In this document: positions 1 through 9,143 of the stretch, piece after piece
Layout of the letters: every line of letters begins with the position of its first letter
How positions within the stretch are numbered: the stretch's first letter is position 1
Source of the DNA: Bacteroidia bacterium
GTDB lineage: Bacteria; Bacteroidota; Bacteroidia; J057
Length of the DNA stretch: 64,000 nucleotides
Assembly: GCA_022760475.1 (NCBI GenBank)
Contig: JALEFZ010000088.1
Coordinates: 124,001 to 188,000 of the forward strand
Direction: 5' to 3'
Translations under genes and position numbers: made by a program
Notes under the pieces: model-generated
Told to the model about the DNA's origin: nothing
Databases searched by the model: none
The model's input: the letters and a program-made list of their open reading frames with translations, nothing else

Positions 1-661
1 ATAAAGGATTGATGGTAATTTGACCATCGCTATTTTGGCAACTAGCATCCAAAATGACCTCATTCAGTTCCATTTCGTCCAGCTCAACGGTAATGGAAAT
101 AGAATCTGCACAAGCTTGGTTGGAGATAACTTTGGCCTGGACGTCATAAGTTCCTCCTTGGTCAAAGTGGAAACTTGGGACCGTCTGGTTGGAAAAAGCC
201 ACTGTACCATTGGGAGAGGTCGCCTTCCATTCATAGGTGAGGTTGGCCTGAGGGGCTACATCTACTGAAAAATCATAAAAACCAGGGCCACAGATTTTTT
301 GGTTTGAGCTAATAGAATTGATGATGGGTTGCTCCCCAACTCTTAAGGGCCTTCCCTGGAAGTAATAATTGAGCCAGACAAAGTTGGTTCCATCATAGAA
401 TTTTAAAAGGGCAGAAGTATTGTATGTTCCAGGAGAGCTGTAGGTGTGGGTTACAGTTAATGGGCCTTGAACTCGTGGCGAGCCATCATCAAAGTCCCAT
501 GTAATGTCGAGGAAGTTTCCTACAATTTGTGAAATGGTGAAGGTCGCACTAAGGCTATCACAGCCAACTGAGTCAGTACGGGTCAGCACAGCTGATTGCT
601 GGGCATAGGAAATAGAAAAGGCTCCCAATAGGAGACCTATGAGAATGATTTGTGTTCTCAT
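1..661 (-). CDS. Secreted T9SS cargo protein with PKD domain, N-terminal part (cut by window edge)
   Basis: The frame is open on the minus strand from an ATG at 659-661 to the window edge, so about 220 N-terminal residues are visible. The protein begins with a signal peptide (MRTQIILIGLLLGAFSIS, then YAQ). A conserved segment with TRTDSVGCDSLS follows, then a PKD-like domain at about residues 45-90 (WDFDDGS ... HTYSSPGTY). The visible end carries a C-x-x-S-D-G-x-I-T-I-N-P motif like that in its three neighbours, so this is the fourth member of the tandem paralogue array. Those paralogues end in a type A sorting domain, so export by the type IX secretion system and surface attachment or release is likely. 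The C-terminus and exact role are unseen. The start is well supported because the signal peptide begins right there. Confidence 0.85.
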   Translation of the reverse strand, partial: MRTQIILIGLLLGAFSISYAQQSAVLTRTDSVGCDSLSATFTISQIVGNFLDITWDFDDGSPRVQGPLTVTHTYSSPGTYNTSALLKFYDGTNFVWLNYYFQGRPLRVGEQPIINSISSNQKICGPGFYDFSVDVAPQANLTYEWKATSPNGTVAFSNQTVPSFHFDQGGTYDVQAKVISNQACADSISITVELDEMELNEVILDASCQNSDGQITINPL

Positions 662-830: not shown

Positions 831-854
831 GGCGTATGATTCACATCATACGCC
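831..854 (-). terminator. Intrinsic terminator after the 899-3490 gene
   Basis: A perfect 10-bp stem (GGCGTATGAT / ATCATACGCC) with a 4-base loop is followed on the minus strand by TAAGTTTTTG. It lies about 45 bases after the stop of the T9SS gene at 899-3490. Two near copies lie behind the next two paralogues. Confidence 0.8.
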
Positions 855-898: not shown

Positions 899-3490
899 TT
901 ATTTGTTGAGGCTAACTCGCTTGACGAATTGCCCTTTATTTGTTTTCACACGTACCAGGTAAACGCCTTGTTCCTTGCCTGAGAGATCAATGATTTGCTT
1001 ATCAGTCTGAAGGATTTGCCTTCCAGTTAGGTCATAAACAGAGATTGCCTCAATATTGGAATCTATGCTACTGATATTGAATATTCCCTTGCTTGGATTG
1101 GGGTATATTAAAATTCCATCAGGGGCAGGATCTGCTATAGAGGTAGGATCTGCTATGGTATTTACAACAGTATTGGTAATGATAGGAGCATTGAAATCAA
1201 AGAAAATGGCAGCGGTATTTTTGATTTCAGTCTCAGGTGTCAATACCCCTTCATGCCTCACTGCAAAGATGAAATGCCCCTGGCTACCTTCAGGATCTGA
1301 GGTAGAGTCGGGCAGGTTGATATTGTCAAACCTGACTTCCATGATGTTGTCTTTCATGTTCAATTTGTAGGGATGACTTGCAGCCACCGGCTTGACGGTT
1401 TGGTAACGAAGGTTTGCATCCAGGGTGTCGCGAAGTACAACAAATTCTGCCGGGAAGTTTCCTGTGTTTTGGAATCGGATGGTATATTCCATGATGTTTT
1501 CTTCAGGCTTGATATAGCCCTCAGATCCTTCTCCTATGGGATCTACCTGCTTGTCATTAGGGTCATAAGAACCACGGACGAATCTTGTTCTAGCCTTAAT
1601 GTTATTTGCAGGGTTAACATCATTTGTTATTGGGCCTATCTCTGCAGAGTAATTGATCAGGGTATTCAGTGGGACGGTGCTGTCTATTTCTCCAAAGACC
1701 TGAAAGTATGCTATTTGGCCTGGAAGCAGGTTGCTGACATTCCAAATTGCCGTGCGGGTATTTGGGTCATAGTTTACCGCAGTAGGATTTGAGCTTAGGT
1801 AGGTTACCAAGGGATCATGGGTAAACTCTACAATTCCATTCATAGGAACGGTTCCTAAATTACTAGCATGAATGGTATATCTGTGGGAGAAGCCGGGACG
1901 GATAATGGTGTTGTTAACCGTAACAGCAAGGTCAATGATCATGCTATCTGGTTGCAGGGCAAAGTCCAGTCCCGATACATCGGAAAGGTTGATGGTTTGG
2001 GTGTAAGATCCCGAAGAAGGACATGCCGATGAAAAACTGGGGAAAGATGCAGCAGAAATGGTGATGTCATAAGTTCCTGATGGTACCGAGAAGCCATAAT
2101 TTCCATTGTTGTCCAGTGAGGTCGTTTGACTCCCTCCGTCTAACAAAACTGTTCCTCCGCTTAGGTAGAAATCATTGCCATCAAGGATACAGTTTCCATT
2201 TTCATCATAGAATACCCTTCCTGAAAGCATGTAGGTACAGCTATCTTCTACCTCTACAAAGGCAACTTCGCGGTCTGCGCATCCAGTGGCGTCTGTAACC
2301 ACTACCGAATAACCTCCCTGAGGAATGTTTGAGTTCAAACTGGTGGTAACCCCATTTGACCAAGAGTATGCAAAGGGAGGATTAGATCCTGTGGCAAATA
2401 CTTCCAGGCTTCCTCCATTTCCAGAACAGTCTGCATCGGTAGAAGCGAAATTGACATTCAGGACATCAGAATCAATTTCGATTGTTTCAGTGAATGAACA
2501 ACTGTTGTCAGAGATGGTAACAGTGTAAATTCCCCTAGGCAAACCAGTTCTGTCTTCGGTAGTTGCGCCATCGTTCCAAAGGAAGTTCACTGGACCATTG
2601 CTGGCATTAATAGTAATGTCAACTTCTCCTGTTGAGTCCTGGTCGCACACGATATTGGTGGTGGAGATTCTGTAGTCGATTGAACTGTCTAGTTCGACAG
2701 TAAGGGTATCGTAAAACGAGCATCCAAAAAGATAACCATAAGAAACCTCGGCCAAGTAGTCTCCTGCTGGCAGGTTATTGACTACCTTACCTGAGTCTCC
2801 GGTAGACCAGACAATTGGTCCCTGAAGGGCAGTTCCATTAGATAGGGTAGGGTTAAGGGTAATTGAGCCATCACTTCCACCACAACTGGCATCCATAATC
2901 ACTGGGTTCAGGTTTAAGGTATTCAGTAAAGTGAATGAAAAAGTTTCTATATATGGGCATGCTGGATCAAAATACGTTCGGTATTCCATGGTATAGGTTC
3001 CTTCCTGACTCAGGTTAAAGTTTGATTGCTGGGTATTAGAGGTGGAAGAAGTCCCATCAGGAAATGTCAGGTTCCACTCATGGAGTGCCGCCGAGGTATC
3101 TACCAAAGATTCGAAGGTATAGATACCGGGGCTACAGGCTCGGTTGCCAGCAATTCCTACACGAAAGACACGGGGAGGGCCTATCCTTACTTCTCCTGGA
3201 TAAATCCATCGATTCTGTGGTGTTCCTCCTGCAAAACTGACTTGTACGAAGGGGAAATATTGTCCATTTGTGGCATAAGTATGCGTTGGGTTTTGCAGAG
3301 TGCTGGTATTCCCATCTCCAAAATTCCAGAGATAGGACGTAGGAGTTCCCGAGGTCGCAGTTACACCAAAGTTGATGGTAAGTGGGCTACAGCCGATGGA
3401 GTCGCTCCATGTGACGACTGCATTGTTTTGGGCAGATATGAAGGATATGGCACCGACAATCCAGCCCATGAAAAGGAATAGTTTTTTCAT
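899..3490 (-). CDS. Secreted multidomain T9SS cargo protein (PKD, SprB-like, type A sorting domain)
   Basis: 863 residues. A signal peptide (about 1-20, ending SAQ) is followed by a PKD domain at about 30-105 (YLWNFGDGNTST ... HTYATNGQYFP). Two or three SprB-like repeats follow at about 190-410 (VDITINASNGPVNFLWNDG, SYSVVVTDATGCADR). Next are a short carboxypeptidase-regulatory-like segment (GRVFYDENGNC), a DUF11/CARDB-like beta domain, and a conserved block around SYDPNDKQV and MEYTIRFQNTG. The last 75 or so residues are a type A T9SS sorting domain (LIYPNPSKGIF ... VYDLTGRQI ... GVYLVRVKT). Such proteins cross the outer membrane by T9SS and are cleaved and anchored or released. No catalytic domain is visible, so adhesion or a structural surface role is most likely. 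It is a tandem paralogue of the two genes upstream and the partial gene downstream, and is probably transcribed alone, with its own promoter-like element and terminator. Confidence 0.9.
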   Translation of the reverse strand: MKKLFLFMGWIVGAISFISAQNNAVVTWSDSIGCSPLTINFGVTATSGTPTSYLWNFGDGNTSTLQNPTHTYATNGQYFPFVQVSFAGGTPQNRWIYPGEVRIGPPRVFRVGIAGNRACSPGIYTFESLVDTSAALHEWNLTFPDGTSSTSNTQQSNFNLSQEGTYTMEYRTYFDPACPYIETFSFTLLNTLNLNPVIMDASCGGSDGSITLNPTLSNGTALQGPIVWSTGDSGKVVNNLPAGDYLAEVSYGYLFGCSFYDTLTVELDSSIDYRISTTNIVCDQDSTGEVDITINASNGPVNFLWNDGATTEDRTGLPRGIYTVTISDNSCSFTETIEIDSDVLNVNFASTDADCSGNGGSLEVFATGSNPPFAYSWSNGVTTSLNSNIPQGGYSVVVTDATGCADREVAFVEVEDSCTYMLSGRVFYDENGNCILDGNDFYLSGGTVLLDGGSQTTSLDNNGNYGFSVPSGTYDITISAASFPSFSSACPSSGSYTQTINLSDVSGLDFALQPDSMIIDLAVTVNNTIIRPGFSHRYTIHASNLGTVPMNGIVEFTHDPLVTYLSSNPTAVNYDPNTRTAIWNVSNLLPGQIAYFQVFGEIDSTVPLNTLINYSAEIGPITNDVNPANNIKARTRFVRGSYDPNDKQVDPIGEGSEGYIKPEENIMEYTIRFQNTGNFPAEFVVLRDTLDANLRYQTVKPVAASHPYKLNMKDNIMEVRFDNINLPDSTSDPEGSQGHFIFAVRHEGVLTPETEIKNTAAIFFDFNAPIITNTVVNTIADPTSIADPAPDGILIYPNPSKGIFNISSIDSNIEAISVYDLTGRQILQTDKQIIDLSGKEQGVYLVRVKTNKGQFVKRVSLNK

Positions 3491-3545: not shown

Positions 3546-3573
3546 TACACGTTTCCTTTTTTAGAATGGTTGG
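3546..3573 (-). promoter_or_regulatory. ECF-sigma-like promoter of the 899-3490 gene
   Basis: On the minus strand the sequence is CCAACC-N16-CGTGTA, 55 bases before the ATG. The same two blocks with exactly 16 bases between them occur before the next two paralogues, while the spacer sequences differ. An AAC-type -35 and CGT-type -10 at this spacing is the usual layout of ECF sigma promoters. Confidence 0.55.
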
Positions 3574-3614
3574 GTTGATTAAAAATTATTTAATGAGAAA
3601 ATTCCAAAAATAAA

Positions 3615-3638
3615 GGCGTGCAATTCACATCGCACGCC
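3615..3638 (-). terminator. Intrinsic terminator after the 3678-6290 gene
   Basis: A 10-bp stem with a 4-base loop. The only mismatch on the plus strand becomes a G-U wobble in the minus-strand transcript, which shows that the minus transcript is the one under selection. TTTATTTTTGG follows the stem. The flanking bases 3639-3671 are almost identical to those after the next paralogue. Confidence 0.85.
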
Positions 3639-3677
3639 AAAGGATATACCACTCCTTAAAACTAGTTCTTAAAATGC

Positions 3678-6290
3678 TTATTTATTTAAGCTGATTCTTT
3701 TCACAACGATTCCTCTATTAGTCTGAATCTGGACCAGATAGATTCCTTCTTTTTCCTGGCTTAGGTCTATCGACTGTTCATTAGTATGGAGAACTTCTCG
3801 CCCTGTGATATCAAAGACACGAATTAGCTGAATGTTGGCATCAAGTCCATTGACCTGGAATAGTCCATGAGTTGGGTTGGGATAAATAAGGATGCCGTCT
3901 TTAGCAGGTTCTAGGATAGAAGAAGGTTCTGCAATGGTGCTCAATACGGTATTGGTGAATATGGGCTTGTTGAAGTCAAAGTAAATGGCCGCCTGATTGC
4001 TAATCTCCGTCAAGGGAGCCAATACCCCATCATGCCTGATGACAAAGGTGAAGAAGCCTTGGCTTCCTTCTGGGTCTGAGATGGAATCAGGAAGATTGAT
4101 GTTATCAAAACGAACTTCAAGTTCATCACCTTTTAATCTCATTTTGTAGGGGTGGCTTGCAGCCACGGGCTTGATGGATTCTAAATCCAAATCTGAATCA
4201 AGGGTATCTCGAAGCACAACAAACTCCGCTGGGAATGTACCGGTATTCTGGAATCGAATGGTATATTCCATGATGTTTTCTGTAGGTTCAATGAAGCCTT
4301 CAGGCCCTTCACCTGCCGGAAATACCTGCTTGTCATTAGGGTCAAATGATCCTACAACGGTACTTGGGTGATTATAGAAATTGTTGGATTGGTCATTGTC
4401 ATTGGTAACTGGACCTACATCCGCAATAATGTTAATCGAAGTTCCCAGAGGAGTGGTGGCAGACACTTGACCTACTACGGTAAACTTGATCATTCTGGAG
4501 GGCAGAAGGTTGCTAAAGTCAAAAATGGCGGTTCGGGTCTGGGGATCATAATTTACTGGGGCAGGTGTGGCATTTTGGTATGATACCTGACTATCATGAG
4601 TAAATGTCAGCAGTCCACTCATGGGAACAGTGCCTAAATTTTGAACAAAAATCTGATAGCTATGGTTGAATCCGGGTCTAATAGCATTTGTATAAATAGA
4701 GGTAGCCAGGTCAATGATGTTGGTATCCGGTGTAAGGGCAAAATCAAGGTTTCCGATGTCTGATAAAGTAACTGTGGGATTAAATGAACCATTGGCAGGA
4801 CAGGAAATACTGAATGCTGGGAAAGAACGGCCTATGGAAGGTGCCACGGTATGGCTTCCTGGAGGTACAGAAAAGCTGTAAGAACCTGTAGGGTCCAGTT
4901 GGACATACTCGGCTCCATTATTCAACTTTATCCAACCTTCCGTGATATAAAAGTCATTGCCATCCAGGATACAGTTGCCATTTTCATCATAAAATACCTT
5001 ACCTGAAATCGTATATGCGCAGGTATCTGCCGGTTCCACAAAGGCTACTTCTCGGTCGGCACATCCTGTGGCATCAGTTACAACTACTGAGTAACCTCCC
5101 GCTGTAATATTCGGATTGATAGCTGTTGTAACCCCATTTGACCATGAAAAGGAATATGGGCTTTGACCGCCGCTGACAAAAGCTTCTAGGGAACCACCAT
5201 TACCTGAACAGTCAGAATCCAGGGCTGTGAAGGTGACCGAAAGGCTATCAGCTTCAATTTCAATATCTTCAGTCCTCGTACAACTGTTATCAGTCATGGT
5301 AACTGTGTAGGTGCCAGCTGGGATATTGCTTAGGTCTTCACTAACATCACCTGTGTTCCAAAGGAAGCTGACAGGGCCATTGCTGGCATTGATGGTGATA
5401 TCAATTGCGCCTACCGAATCTAGTTCACAGGGTACATTCGTAGTAGAGATGCTATAATCGAGGGTTCCTATTTCGTCTACATAGAAGGTATCAATGGCAG
5501 TACATCCACCTTGAAATCCCCATATCACCTCAGCTGAATATGCTCCCATGGCAAGGTTGCTGATGCTTGTTCCAGTCATTCCATTTGACCAATTGACATT
5601 TACCGAGGGATTGGTTCCGTTGATGCTGGGCATTAGCGAAATGGCCCCGTCGCTGCTCCCACAATTTGCATCGGTAATCATAGGGTTGAATGCCAAGGTA
5701 TCCACCGTAATTATTCGGCTGTAGGATCCCGCGCAATTTGGATCAAAAAATGCCCTTGCTTCAATGGTGTAGGTTCCAACTTGGTCTAAGTCAAAACTTG
5801 ACATAAACTGGGTGGAACTGGTCGTAGATCCATTTGGGAAAGTAACAATCCATTCATAATCAAGGTAAGGGATCAATAAGGAATCTACATCCATGATGAA
5901 ATCATAATCACCAGTACCACATATGGTGTTAAAAGTATTGCCAAATGTGAAGTTAAAGTCCCTAACCCGTGGTGTCCCAACAAACATGGGTTGGGAGTTA
6001 TTGAATGTAAAGATCTGGGAGGTGCCAGTAGCAAAACTTACCGTTACCCATGGGAAATAAATTCCTGTACTACTGTAGGTATGGGTAGGGTTTTGAAGCG
6101 TACTTGTATTCCCATCTCCAAAATTCCAATCAAAAGATGTAGCTGTTCCTGATGTAACGACGACATCGAAATCAACAGTTAAGGAGGTACAGTCTGAAGA
6201 GTCAGATCTGGTAATAGCCGCTGTGTTTTGGGAAAGTCCCCATCCTATCAGGCAAAAGAATAGGCAGAAAAGTAGAATTTGTGTTTTCAT
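3678..6290 (-). CDS. Secreted multidomain T9SS cargo protein, paralogue 2
   Basis: 870 residues from the ATG at 6288-6290. An in-frame extension reaches 6428 but would run back through the terminator hairpin of the upstream gene and the promoter-like element at 6351-6378. The internal ATG also begins a proper signal peptide (MKTQILLFCLFFCLIGWGLS). Domain order matches its neighbours: PKD (FDWNFGDGNTST), SprB-like repeats, FYDENGNC segment, CARDB/DUF11-like beta domain, the DPNDKQVFPAGEGPEGF block, and a type A T9SS sorting domain (LIYPNPTHGLF ... VFDITGREV ... GIYLVQIQT). The C-terminal half is visibly closer to the paralogues than the N-terminal third. The likely role is a surface-exposed or released structural or adhesive protein. 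No enzymatic domain is seen. Confidence 0.9.
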   Translation of the reverse strand: MKTQILLFCLFFCLIGWGLSQNTAAITRSDSSDCTSLTVDFDVVVTSGTATSFDWNFGDGNTSTLQNPTHTYSSTGIYFPWVTVSFATGTSQIFTFNNSQPMFVGTPRVRDFNFTFGNTFNTICGTGDYDFIMDVDSLLIPYLDYEWIVTFPNGSTTSSTQFMSSFDLDQVGTYTIEARAFFDPNCAGSYSRIITVDTLAFNPMITDANCGSSDGAISLMPSINGTNPSVNVNWSNGMTGTSISNLAMGAYSAEVIWGFQGGCTAIDTFYVDEIGTLDYSISTTNVPCELDSVGAIDITINASNGPVSFLWNTGDVSEDLSNIPAGTYTVTMTDNSCTRTEDIEIEADSLSVTFTALDSDCSGNGGSLEAFVSGGQSPYSFSWSNGVTTAINPNITAGGYSVVVTDATGCADREVAFVEPADTCAYTISGKVFYDENGNCILDGNDFYITEGWIKLNNGAEYVQLDPTGSYSFSVPPGSHTVAPSIGRSFPAFSISCPANGSFNPTVTLSDIGNLDFALTPDTNIIDLATSIYTNAIRPGFNHSYQIFVQNLGTVPMSGLLTFTHDSQVSYQNATPAPVNYDPQTRTAIFDFSNLLPSRMIKFTVVGQVSATTPLGTSINIIADVGPVTNDNDQSNNFYNHPSTVVGSFDPNDKQVFPAGEGPEGFIEPTENIMEYTIRFQNTGTFPAEFVVLRDTLDSDLDLESIKPVAASHPYKMRLKGDELEVRFDNINLPDSISDPEGSQGFFTFVIRHDGVLAPLTEISNQAAIYFDFNKPIFTNTVLSTIAEPSSILEPAKDGILIYPNPTHGLFQVNGLDANIQLIRVFDITGREVLHTNEQSIDLSQEKEGIYLVQIQTNRGIVVKRISLNK

Positions 6291-6350
6291 TAAATTCAAA
6301 TTAATAGGTGTTGGTAAAAGAAATTGTTGGTTGTGCCATATGTACCAACA

Positions 6351-6378
6351 TACACGTCTTGTTTTTTTGAAAGGTTGG
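6351..6378 (-). promoter_or_regulatory. ECF-sigma-like promoter of the 3678-6290 gene
   Basis: Minus strand CCAACC-N16-CGTGTA, 60 bases upstream of the ATG at 6290. It is the second of three copies of this element with identical spacing, after the terminator of the upstream paralogue. Confidence 0.55.
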
Positions 6379-6407
6379 GGAGGTAGGGAAGTTATTTCAA
6401 AAAAATA

Positions 6408-6431
6408 GGCGTGCGATTCGCATCGCACGCC
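6408..6431 (-). terminator. Intrinsic terminator after the 6471-9056 gene
   Basis: A perfect 10-bp stem (GGCGTGCGAT / ATCGCACGCC, loop of 4) is followed on the minus strand by TATTTTTTTG. It is a near copy of the hairpin at 3615-3638, including the flank up to the stop codon region. Confidence 0.9.
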
Positions 6432-6470
6432 AAAGGATATACCACTCCTTAAAACTAGTTTTTGTTAATC

Positions 6471-9056
6471 TTATTTTCTCAGACTGATTCTTTTAACGCT
6501 TAGGCCTTTGTTGCTTTGAATTTGAACAAGGTATACGCCTTCTTTCTCTCCGGAAAGGTCAATCAGTTGCTGATCAGTTCTCAAAACTTCTCTACCAGTA
6601 ATGTCGAATACGCGAACCTGCTCGATATCTACATTCAGGCCATTTACCTGGAATAGACCACGGGTAGGGTTAGGGTAAAGAAGGATTCCGTCTTTGGCAG
6701 GATCTACAACAGATGAAGGTTCTGCGATGGTATTGACAACTGTATTTGTGTAAATCGGCTTGTTGAAGTCGAAGTAGATGGCCGCCTGATTGGATATCTC
6801 CGTAAGTGGAGCAAGTACTCCGTCGTGGCGGATCACAAACTTGAAGTATCCCTGGCTTCCAGCTGGATCTGAAGCTGAGTCAGGCAGGTTGATGTTGTCA
6901 AAACGAACCTCCATGGCATTTCCTTTCATGGTCAGTTTGTATGGGTGGCTGGCAGCTACAGGCTTTAGAGAGGCAAGTGCCAGGTTGGCATCAAGCGTAT
7001 CTCGTAGCACTACGAATTCAGCTGGGAAGTTACCCGTATTCTGGAACCTGATGGTGTACTCCATGATGTCATCAGTAGGCTCAATAAATCCTTCTGGGCC
7101 TTCACCTTCTGGAATTACCTGCTTATCATTCGGGTCGAATGAACCTACTACCAGGCGAACCTGCTGAGTAGAGTTGTTCACTGGGTCTACATCATTGGTG
7201 ATGGGGCCTACTTCTGCAAGGCTGGTAATGGCCGTGCCCAACTGAGTGCTTGGAGGAACATATCCTGTGATTTCGTATCTCTCCCATCTGCCAGGTAGCA
7301 GGTTGTTGAAGCTCCAGATTGCAGTTCTGGTGGCAGGGTCGTAGTTGACTGCCGAAGGGGAAGAACTTTGGTAGGTAACTGCCTGGTCATGGGTAAAGCT
7401 AACCAGACCACTCATTGGTGTTGCACCGAAGTTGTAGGCAACCACATAGTATCTGTGGTTGAATCCAGGTCTTATTGGCCCAATGGTCATATACACAGCC
7501 AGGTCGATCAGATTGGTATCTGGCGTCATAGCGAAGTCAAGGCCATTAACATCAGAGAAAGTAACGGTTGTATTGTGAGAACCTCCTGCTGGACAAGCGG
7601 GTGAGAAGTATGGGAATGAAAAGCTGGAAGGCTCAATGTCGTAGGTACCAGAAGGAACTGTGAAAGTATACGTACCGGATGAGTCTAGGCTGGTGTACTG
7701 GGCACCGTTGTCAAGGATCATTAGGCCACTGGTGATATAGAAATCATTTCCATCCATGATGCAGTTGCCATTTTCATCATAAAATACCTTACCTGAAACT
7801 GTATAGAAACAAGAGTCAGCAGGCTCTACAAAAGCAACTTCTCTGTCCGCACAACCTGTTGCATCCGTAACGACTACAGAGTATCCTCCTGCTGCGATAT
7901 TGGGGTTGATGCTGGTAGTTACGCCATTAGACCAAGAGTATGTATAAGGAGATTGACCTCCTGTAACGAATACTTCAAGGGAACCTCCATTACCTGCACA
8001 GTCAGAGTCGGTAGAAGTGAAAGTAACATCAAGGCTATCTCCGTCAATTACGATGGTTTCGGAGAAGCTACAGCTGTTGTCAGAGATCGTAACTGTATAA
8101 GTTCCTCCAGGGAGGTTTGTCAAGTCTTCGGTAGTTGCTCCATTGCTCCAAAGGAAGTTTACAGGGCCATCACTTGAGTTGATGGTGATGTCAATTTCTC
8201 CAGTAGAATCTTGCTCACAAGCTACATTCACTGAACTGATGCTATAATCCAGTGTACCTGAAACTCCAACCGTGAAGCTATCTCTGGCTACACACTGGAA
8301 GTTAGGGCCGTATAGAAATTCTCCAACGTAGGTTCCAGGTGCAAGGTTGTTGATGACATTTCCTGAATCACCGGTAGACCAAAAAACAAAACCCTGGAAG
8401 ACTCCTCCACTAGGACTGACAGAAATTGATCCATTGTTGGCACCACAGCTTGCGTCAGTAATGACAGCGTTAAAGTTTACGGTATCCACAGTGAAAGTCT
8501 GATCCATTGAATCAGGACAGGCAGGATCAATCCAGGTTCTATAACGTAGGGTATATGTTCCCGAAAGATTCATGTTGAAATTAGGAAACAGAGCCGTTGA
8601 GTTCTGAGAAGTTCCATCGGGATAGAACATGGTCCAGTTATAGGTAGCAACTCCGCGTGAAGCAGAGTCCGTAAAGGCGCGGAACTCGTAGTTGTCAGGT
8701 CCACAGATCGTCCCAAATGACTGGATTGACCAGATATCTGGAGGCCCAACAAAAGTTGGTCCACTTCCAAAGAAGAATGATTGAGGCCCTCCTGTGGTGA
8801 AGGTTACCACAACATATGGGTAATAAGTTCCATTCGCGGTGTAGGTGTGGGTTGGGTTAGCCATTGTACTGGTATTTCCATCCCCAAAGATCCAGTTGTA
8901 GGATACTGGAGTTCCCGACATGGGTACAAATGCAAAGCTCGAAGTCAAGCTGTTACAGCCAACTGAGTCTGTACGGGTTGGGAAGCCATTGTTTTGGGCG
9001 AAGCCAATGCTCAGTAACCCAAATAACATGGATATGAGTAGAATTGATTTTTTCAT
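6471..9056 (-). CDS. Secreted multidomain T9SS cargo protein, paralogue 3
   Basis: 861 residues. The signal peptide (MKKSILLISMLFGLLSIGFA, then Q) starts at the chosen ATG. Next come a PKD domain (YNWIFGDGNTST ... HTYTANGTYYP), SprB-like repeats (about 190-400, including VDITINSSDGPVNFLWSNG-like text), the FYDENGNC segment, and the CARDB-like beta domain. A DPNDKQVIPEGEGPEGF block and a type A sorting domain (LLYPNPTRGLF ... VFDITGREV ... GVYLVQIQS) close the protein. Architecture and length match the two downstream genes, so this array arose by tandem duplication. Export by T9SS is inferred from the C-terminal domain. The ligand or partner is unknown. It has its own promoter-like element and terminator. 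Confidence 0.9.
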   Translation of the reverse strand: MKKSILLISMLFGLLSIGFAQNNGFPTRTDSVGCNSLTSSFAFVPMSGTPVSYNWIFGDGNTSTMANPTHTYTANGTYYPYVVVTFTTGGPQSFFFGSGPTFVGPPDIWSIQSFGTICGPDNYEFRAFTDSASRGVATYNWTMFYPDGTSQNSTALFPNFNMNLSGTYTLRYRTWIDPACPDSMDQTFTVDTVNFNAVITDASCGANNGSISVSPSGGVFQGFVFWSTGDSGNVINNLAPGTYVGEFLYGPNFQCVARDSFTVGVSGTLDYSISSVNVACEQDSTGEIDITINSSDGPVNFLWSNGATTEDLTNLPGGTYTVTISDNSCSFSETIVIDGDSLDVTFTSTDSDCAGNGGSLEVFVTGGQSPYTYSWSNGVTTSINPNIAAGGYSVVVTDATGCADREVAFVEPADSCFYTVSGKVFYDENGNCIMDGNDFYITSGLMILDNGAQYTSLDSSGTYTFTVPSGTYDIEPSSFSFPYFSPACPAGGSHNTTVTFSDVNGLDFAMTPDTNLIDLAVYMTIGPIRPGFNHRYYVVAYNFGATPMSGLVSFTHDQAVTYQSSSPSAVNYDPATRTAIWSFNNLLPGRWERYEITGYVPPSTQLGTAITSLAEVGPITNDVDPVNNSTQQVRLVVGSFDPNDKQVIPEGEGPEGFIEPTDDIMEYTIRFQNTGNFPAEFVVLRDTLDANLALASLKPVAASHPYKLTMKGNAMEVRFDNINLPDSASDPAGSQGYFKFVIRHDGVLAPLTEISNQAAIYFDFNKPIYTNTVVNTIAEPSSVVDPAKDGILLYPNPTRGLFQVNGLNVDIEQVRVFDITGREVLRTDQQLIDLSGEKEGVYLVQIQSNKGLSVKRISLRK

Positions 9057-9115
9057 AAAAATCCGGTTGAAGGTTTAGAATGTAATTGTAAAGGATGTAA
9101 CATCTTCCAACAAGC

Positions 9116-9143
9116 TACACGTGCAGCTTGTCGGAGTGGTTGG
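9116..9143 (-). promoter_or_regulatory. ECF-sigma-like promoter of the 6471-9056 gene
   Basis: Minus strand CCAACC-N16-CGTGTA, 59 bases before the ATG at 9056. Its -10 side lies inside a 22-base inverted repeat (9110-9131, one mismatch). The repeat could be an operator or a weak terminator for rmuC upstream, though no T-run follows it. Confidence 0.5.

Follow-up and report, generated by a model that had tools for sequence, protein, structure and literature searches.

To our knowledge, what activates the genes for cargo proteins of the type IX secretion system (T9SS) is mostly not understood except in Porphyromonas gingivalis. In that species, the ECF sigma factor SigP (PGN_0274), together with PorXY, controls T9SS machinery genes, among them porT, porV and porP (PMC4800418, PMC8265659), and the motif C(T)AAA(G/C/T)A(T)A(C)T(A/G)A has been proposed for it (PMC4800418). 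In Flavobacterium psychrophilum, the promoter class SM6, which is of the ECF type and has a CGT -10 box, precedes genes of T9SS components (PMC9723704). Dma (dual membrane-spanning) proteins, according to PMC13088901, are composed of an N-terminal domain, a membrane helix, a long disordered tether and a C-terminal barrel, and pair with ECF21 sigma factors; in dma2 mutants of B. theta, one of the most strongly induced genes is the sigma gene of the same operon. The searched text of that paper contains no promoter motif of the Dma-partnered ECF factors. A literature search in a limited library, which is weak evidence, revealed no paper linking Dma-type pairs to T9SS cargo.

The window, a stretch of 64,000 nucleotides from a Bacteroidia bacterium, contains three T9SS cargo genes, each preceded by the element CCAACC-N16-CGTGTA. 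These elements are best explained as ECF sigma promoters, read by a sigma factor encoded on contig C24 of the same genome and held by a Dma-type predicted anti-sigma factor, which together would control genes of T9SS surface proteins (rough probability 85%). As with SigP, an ECF factor would thus be tied to type IX secretion. However, SigP is driven by PorX and targets machinery genes, whereas the C24 sigma factor is paired with a neighbouring Dma-like predicted anti-sigma factor and the genes behind the window elements encode cargo. The two motifs, compared by eye, do not match. The comparison with SigP drawn in the sequence-only reading is therefore a loose one, and SigP is not the closest match.

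SM6 resembles the present case in its CGT box at -10 and in having an ECF/anti-sigma pair as well as T9SS genes among its targets. The targets listed in PMC9723704 include T9SS components (GldN, PorU) and Band-7 proteins, with no cargo set, in contrast to the cargo genes found here. The likeness to the Das/Dma systems lies in an ECF sigma gene adjoining a gene of Dma architecture, with further genes in the operon; it is a likeness of layout. The known members act on outer-membrane vesicles, NigD1 and glycan-use loci (PMC13088901), whereas here the targets would be T9SS cargo genes.

Cargo paralogues and candidate promoter elements in the window

The features of the window are as follows, all on the minus strand.

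1..660, minus: 5' part of paralogue 4, with its ATG at about 660; the gene extends out of the window as far as about -1935; lacks the element
831..854, minus: hairpin of the same type as that at 6408..6431, between paralogues 1 and 4; probable terminator
899..3490, minus: paralogue 1, T9SS cargo protein of 863 aa with PKD, SprB repeats, DUF11, DUF7619 and Por_Secre_tail (Pfam)
3546..3573, minus: CCAACC-N16-CGTGTA before paralogue 1, candidate ECF promoter; exact match, matrix score 31.2 bits
3615..3638, minus: hairpin of the same type as that at 6408..6431, between paralogues 2 and 1; probable terminator
3678..6290, minus: paralogue 2, T9SS cargo protein of 870 aa with similar domains (Pfam)
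6351..6378, minus: CCAACC-N16-CGTGTA before paralogue 2, candidate ECF promoter; exact match, matrix score 23.5 bits
6408..6431, minus: hairpin GGCGTGCGAT-GCGA-ATCGCACGCC, between paralogues 3 and 2; probable terminator
6471..9056, minus: paralogue 3, T9SS cargo protein of 861 aa with similar domains (Pfam)
9116..9143, minus: CCAACC-N16-CGTGTA before paralogue 3, candidate ECF promoter; exact match, matrix score 28.6 bits

Paralogues 1-3 all have Por_Secre_tail, the C-terminal sorting domain of T9SS cargo (Pfam). Paralogue 2 likely starts at ATG 6290 rather than at GTG 6428, with the signal-peptide-like N-terminus MKTQILLFCLFF. The three hairpins, located 3' of the cargo genes, are near-identical and have four-base loops. 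As these terminator-like structures separate the paralogues, each gene probably needs its own promoter.

The sequence-only reading had placed the element at these three positions, 55-60 bases before the ATG, with fixed blocks and differing spacers, and all of this was borne out. The matches are exact, the pattern did not occur in 100 dinucleotide shuffles of the window, and the last base of the element lies 55, 60 and 59 bases from the ATG of paralogues 1, 2 and 3, respectively. A weight matrix, trained on promoters of outside loci only and thus containing no sequence from the window's genome, placed the three sites on top in a scan of the 64 kb, with the runner-up at 5.7 bits.

Could the elements be leftovers of a duplicated upstream region, non-functional as promoters? 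The paralogues are in tandem and share 55-61% protein identity (59-61% between paralogue 3 and the other two), and their intergenic DNA is alike in places, for instance at the terminator hairpin. However, comparison of the three sites shows that the spacers have diverged while both blocks and their distance remained constant, and unlinked cargo genes on C24 as well as sigma operons of many lineages are preceded by this element with unchanged spacing (see below), which makes this explanation barely credible.

It is also very unlikely that an activator binds to the element while the primary sigma factor initiates transcription close by. Two blocks at a fixed distance could represent a split operator, and site 3, as the only one, carries a 15-base inverted repeat (TCCAACAAGCTACAC/GTGCAGCTTGTCGGA, 9106-9135) centred on its -10 box (CACGTG), which may be due to chance or be an operator. 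Against this, the two blocks are neither inverted nor direct copies of each other, and their layout, an AAC-type -35 and a CGT-type -10 separated by 16 bases, is that of ECF promoters (16-17 bases), in addition to the linkage to ECF sigma genes. Furthermore, when the regions before the six genes were scanned for the primary-sigma promoter of Bacteroidota, the scores did not exceed those of random stretches.

The element in the whole genome

The genome to which the window belongs (6.86 Mb, 96 contigs) contains four exact copies of the 12-base element, compared to none of the reversed-pattern control. The fourth copy is likewise located upstream of a T9SS cargo gene, at 42 bases. Allowing CCAACC-N16/17-CGTG(T/A), eight sites are found, six of which precede T9SS cargo genes, three in the window and three on C24.

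C24:30718-32760: T9SS cargo gene with the element upstream
C24:32876-34915: T9SS cargo gene with the element upstream
C24:22135-24681: T9SS cargo gene with the element upstream

The other two sites are antisense within long open frames of unrelated genes on contigs C28 and C54, whose translations we read as similar to a ferrochelatase and a membrane-bound hydroxylase. The reversed control of this looser form gives four sites, so that two of the eight arising by chance agrees with expectation. With up to two mismatches, there is no enrichment genome-wide (246 matches against 398 for the reversed control), and only the near-exact form is therefore informative. A two-mismatch match at C24:30543 was discarded, as it overlaps a start codon.

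The candidate sigma factor and its predicted anti-sigma factor

The third of the C24 cargo genes opens an operon, in which it is followed by the sigma gene, a 422-aa membrane protein (the predicted anti-sigma factor) and a 385-aa lipoprotein-like protein.

C24:21489-22055, minus: ECF sigma factor of 188 aa; Pfam Sigma70_r2 and r4_2, TIGR02937

The operon is headed by the element in its N17 form (C24:24639) instead of N16. The lipoprotein-like protein carries PKD domains, and its model, of moderate confidence, shows a mostly beta, multi-domain fold. The N17 spacing speaks against the C24 factor as the reader of the window sites, and so does the fact that sigma gene and window lie on different contigs, with the motif as the one tie between them; it is the likely reader all the same.

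The genome encodes 16 ECF factors related to the C24 sigma factor (E below 1e-8), and another of these, or several, might read the promoters instead. One example is a paralogue on contig C17, 45% identical, which belongs to a second operon of cargo, sigma, Dma-like and lipoprotein genes (C17:162845-168724, L083), where CCAACC precedes the cargo gene and the -10 region is different. As operon type and CCAACC box are the same, cross-recognition between the two factors is possible. A SigP counterpart is conceivable as well, as a PorX-like protein with a receiver-like N-terminus and PglZ is encoded at C63:3917-4498 (L177), and overlapping ECF regulons have been suggested in F. psychrophilum (PMC9723704). 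We consider this reading rather unlikely: CGTG(T/A) at 16-17 bases is absent from the C17 cargo promoter, the published SigP motif is different (PMC4800418), and the orthologues of the C24 sigma gene in other genera are located downstream of the CGTG(T/A) form. The -10 box may be what distinguishes paralogous pairs such as those of C24 and C17. A residue-base covariation analysis of sigma factors against -10 and -35 boxes gave top columns scattered over the protein, which were not separable from phylogeny. A PorX pathway may also exist alongside the C24 circuit.

The membrane protein encoded next to the C24 sigma gene has the Dma architecture, as predicted from its sequence and model: an N-terminal domain, a transmembrane helix, a disordered tether and an outer-membrane barrel, adjoining a sigma gene. 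In the AlphaFold model, helices span residues 3-17 and 24-75, disorder extends over 77-216, and a ten-strand barrel occupies 222-421 with a pLDDT mostly above 90; this barrel has structural matches to OmpA, Ail and OprF. Among the relatives collected below, the Dma-like gene directly follows the sigma gene in 73 of 80 loci, with most exceptions being cuts at contig ends, and usually overlaps it or starts within 20 bases. The N-terminus comprises about 40 cytosolic residues, of which W27 is invariant and D8 and A30 are nearly so; a membrane helix comes next, at about residue 45, and then a long stretch of variable sequence. On the basis of architecture and gene order, the protein is predicted to be the anti-sigma factor that inhibits the C24 sigma factor.

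The element at sigma loci of other Bacteroidota

The relatives of the C24 sigma gene comprise 80 loci from named records, mostly from Saprospiraceae and other Bacteroidota, with a total of 1.21 Mb; not all of them are additional, as a few coincide with genomes of the G series (e.g., L092 is G010). CCAAC(C/T)-N16-CGT occurs within 3.5 kb upstream of the sigma gene on its own strand in 71 of these loci and on the opposite strand in none, while control spacings of 10-15 and 17-23 bases gave 0-5 each. All 28 occurrences of the exact element are on the sigma strand. With a slightly wider pattern, 72 loci have the element upstream; of the eight that lack it, only two have a full 10 kb of upstream sequence, whereas in six the sequence before the sigma gene is shorter than 3.5 kb. 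Non-sigma genes behind the element carry Por_Secre_tail in 27 of 30 cases. At the sequence level, the ECF-promoter reading already proposed for the window is strongly supported, because the element stands before ECF sigma genes and before T9SS cargo, with the same spacing and strand in those 71 loci and with N17 in the window's own genome.

Among the genomes of the window's family, the sigma operon or cargo-sigma operon begins with the element in G000 (the window's own genome), G005, G010, G012, G013, G014, G015 and G016. It directly precedes the orthologous sigma gene in G010, and again a cargo gene; in G005, it precedes two cargo genes besides the sigma gene. In G012, G013, G014 and G016, it is found before the cargo gene heading the sigma operon, and in G015 before the same cargo start, on an overlapping contig. 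G006, with a contig ending within the cargo gene, lies outside this comparison. Exact matches within long open frames (G006, G013:C66, G015:C262 and G017) were set aside as chance. Most unlinked CCAACC-N16/17-CGTGW matches in the relatives were left out, since their frequency is close to that of the reversed control; one of them, however, is located before a T9SS-type cargo gene (G005 C1:1214268).

Alignment of the promoters revealed a conserved A and C just 5' of CCAACC, TTT 3' of it and an A/T tract upstream. The -10 box drifts by lineage between CGTGTA, CGTATT, CGTATA and others. In L144, L145, L151, L155, L158, L166 and similar loci, it has become CGTATT or CGTAAT and the -35 box CCAACT, with the 16-base spacing kept. 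At L150:2395 and 2518, tandem copies of the element precede a single sigma gene.

A proposed circuit

The promoter consensus would be (A)C-CCAACC-TTT at -35 and CGT(G/A)T(A/T) at -10, 16 bases apart. The anti-sigma factor would hold the sigma factor via its cytosolic domain of ~40 residues and reach, through the membrane helix and the disordered periplasmic tether, to the barrel in the outer membrane. A signal there, perhaps via the lipoprotein or the cargo itself, would free the sigma factor, and since the element heads the sigma factor's operon, the freed factor would transcribe its own operon (autoactivation) in addition to the remaining genes of T9SS surface proteins that follow the element. 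The regulon would include a total of six cargo genes, of which the window holds three. More tentatively, and less likely than not, this could be a phylum-wide trans-envelope feedback loop, in which the Dma barrel senses the display of T9SS cargo, via the lipoprotein or cargo of the operon, and frees the ECF factor for making more of the same surface proteins. A defined promoter, a probable sigma factor and a probable trans-envelope inhibitor, linked across many Bacteroidota, provide a simple pattern for regulon prediction, and the circuit offers a direct route to what the outer-membrane part of the Dma protein senses.

The fourth paralogue

Upstream of paralogue 4 the element is absent, as initially noted, the best promoter-matrix score being -9.7 bits. 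The suggestion that this gene is simply controlled differently does not hold in that form, as it is also frameshifted ahead of its T9SS sorting domain, which goes on in another frame (contig C49:121500-124661 of the genome, i.e., window about -2500 to 660). Because the frameshift precedes the sorting domain, paralogue 4 may be decaying; the frame change may also be a sequencing error. Over its length, paralogue 4 is 36-39% identical to the other three.
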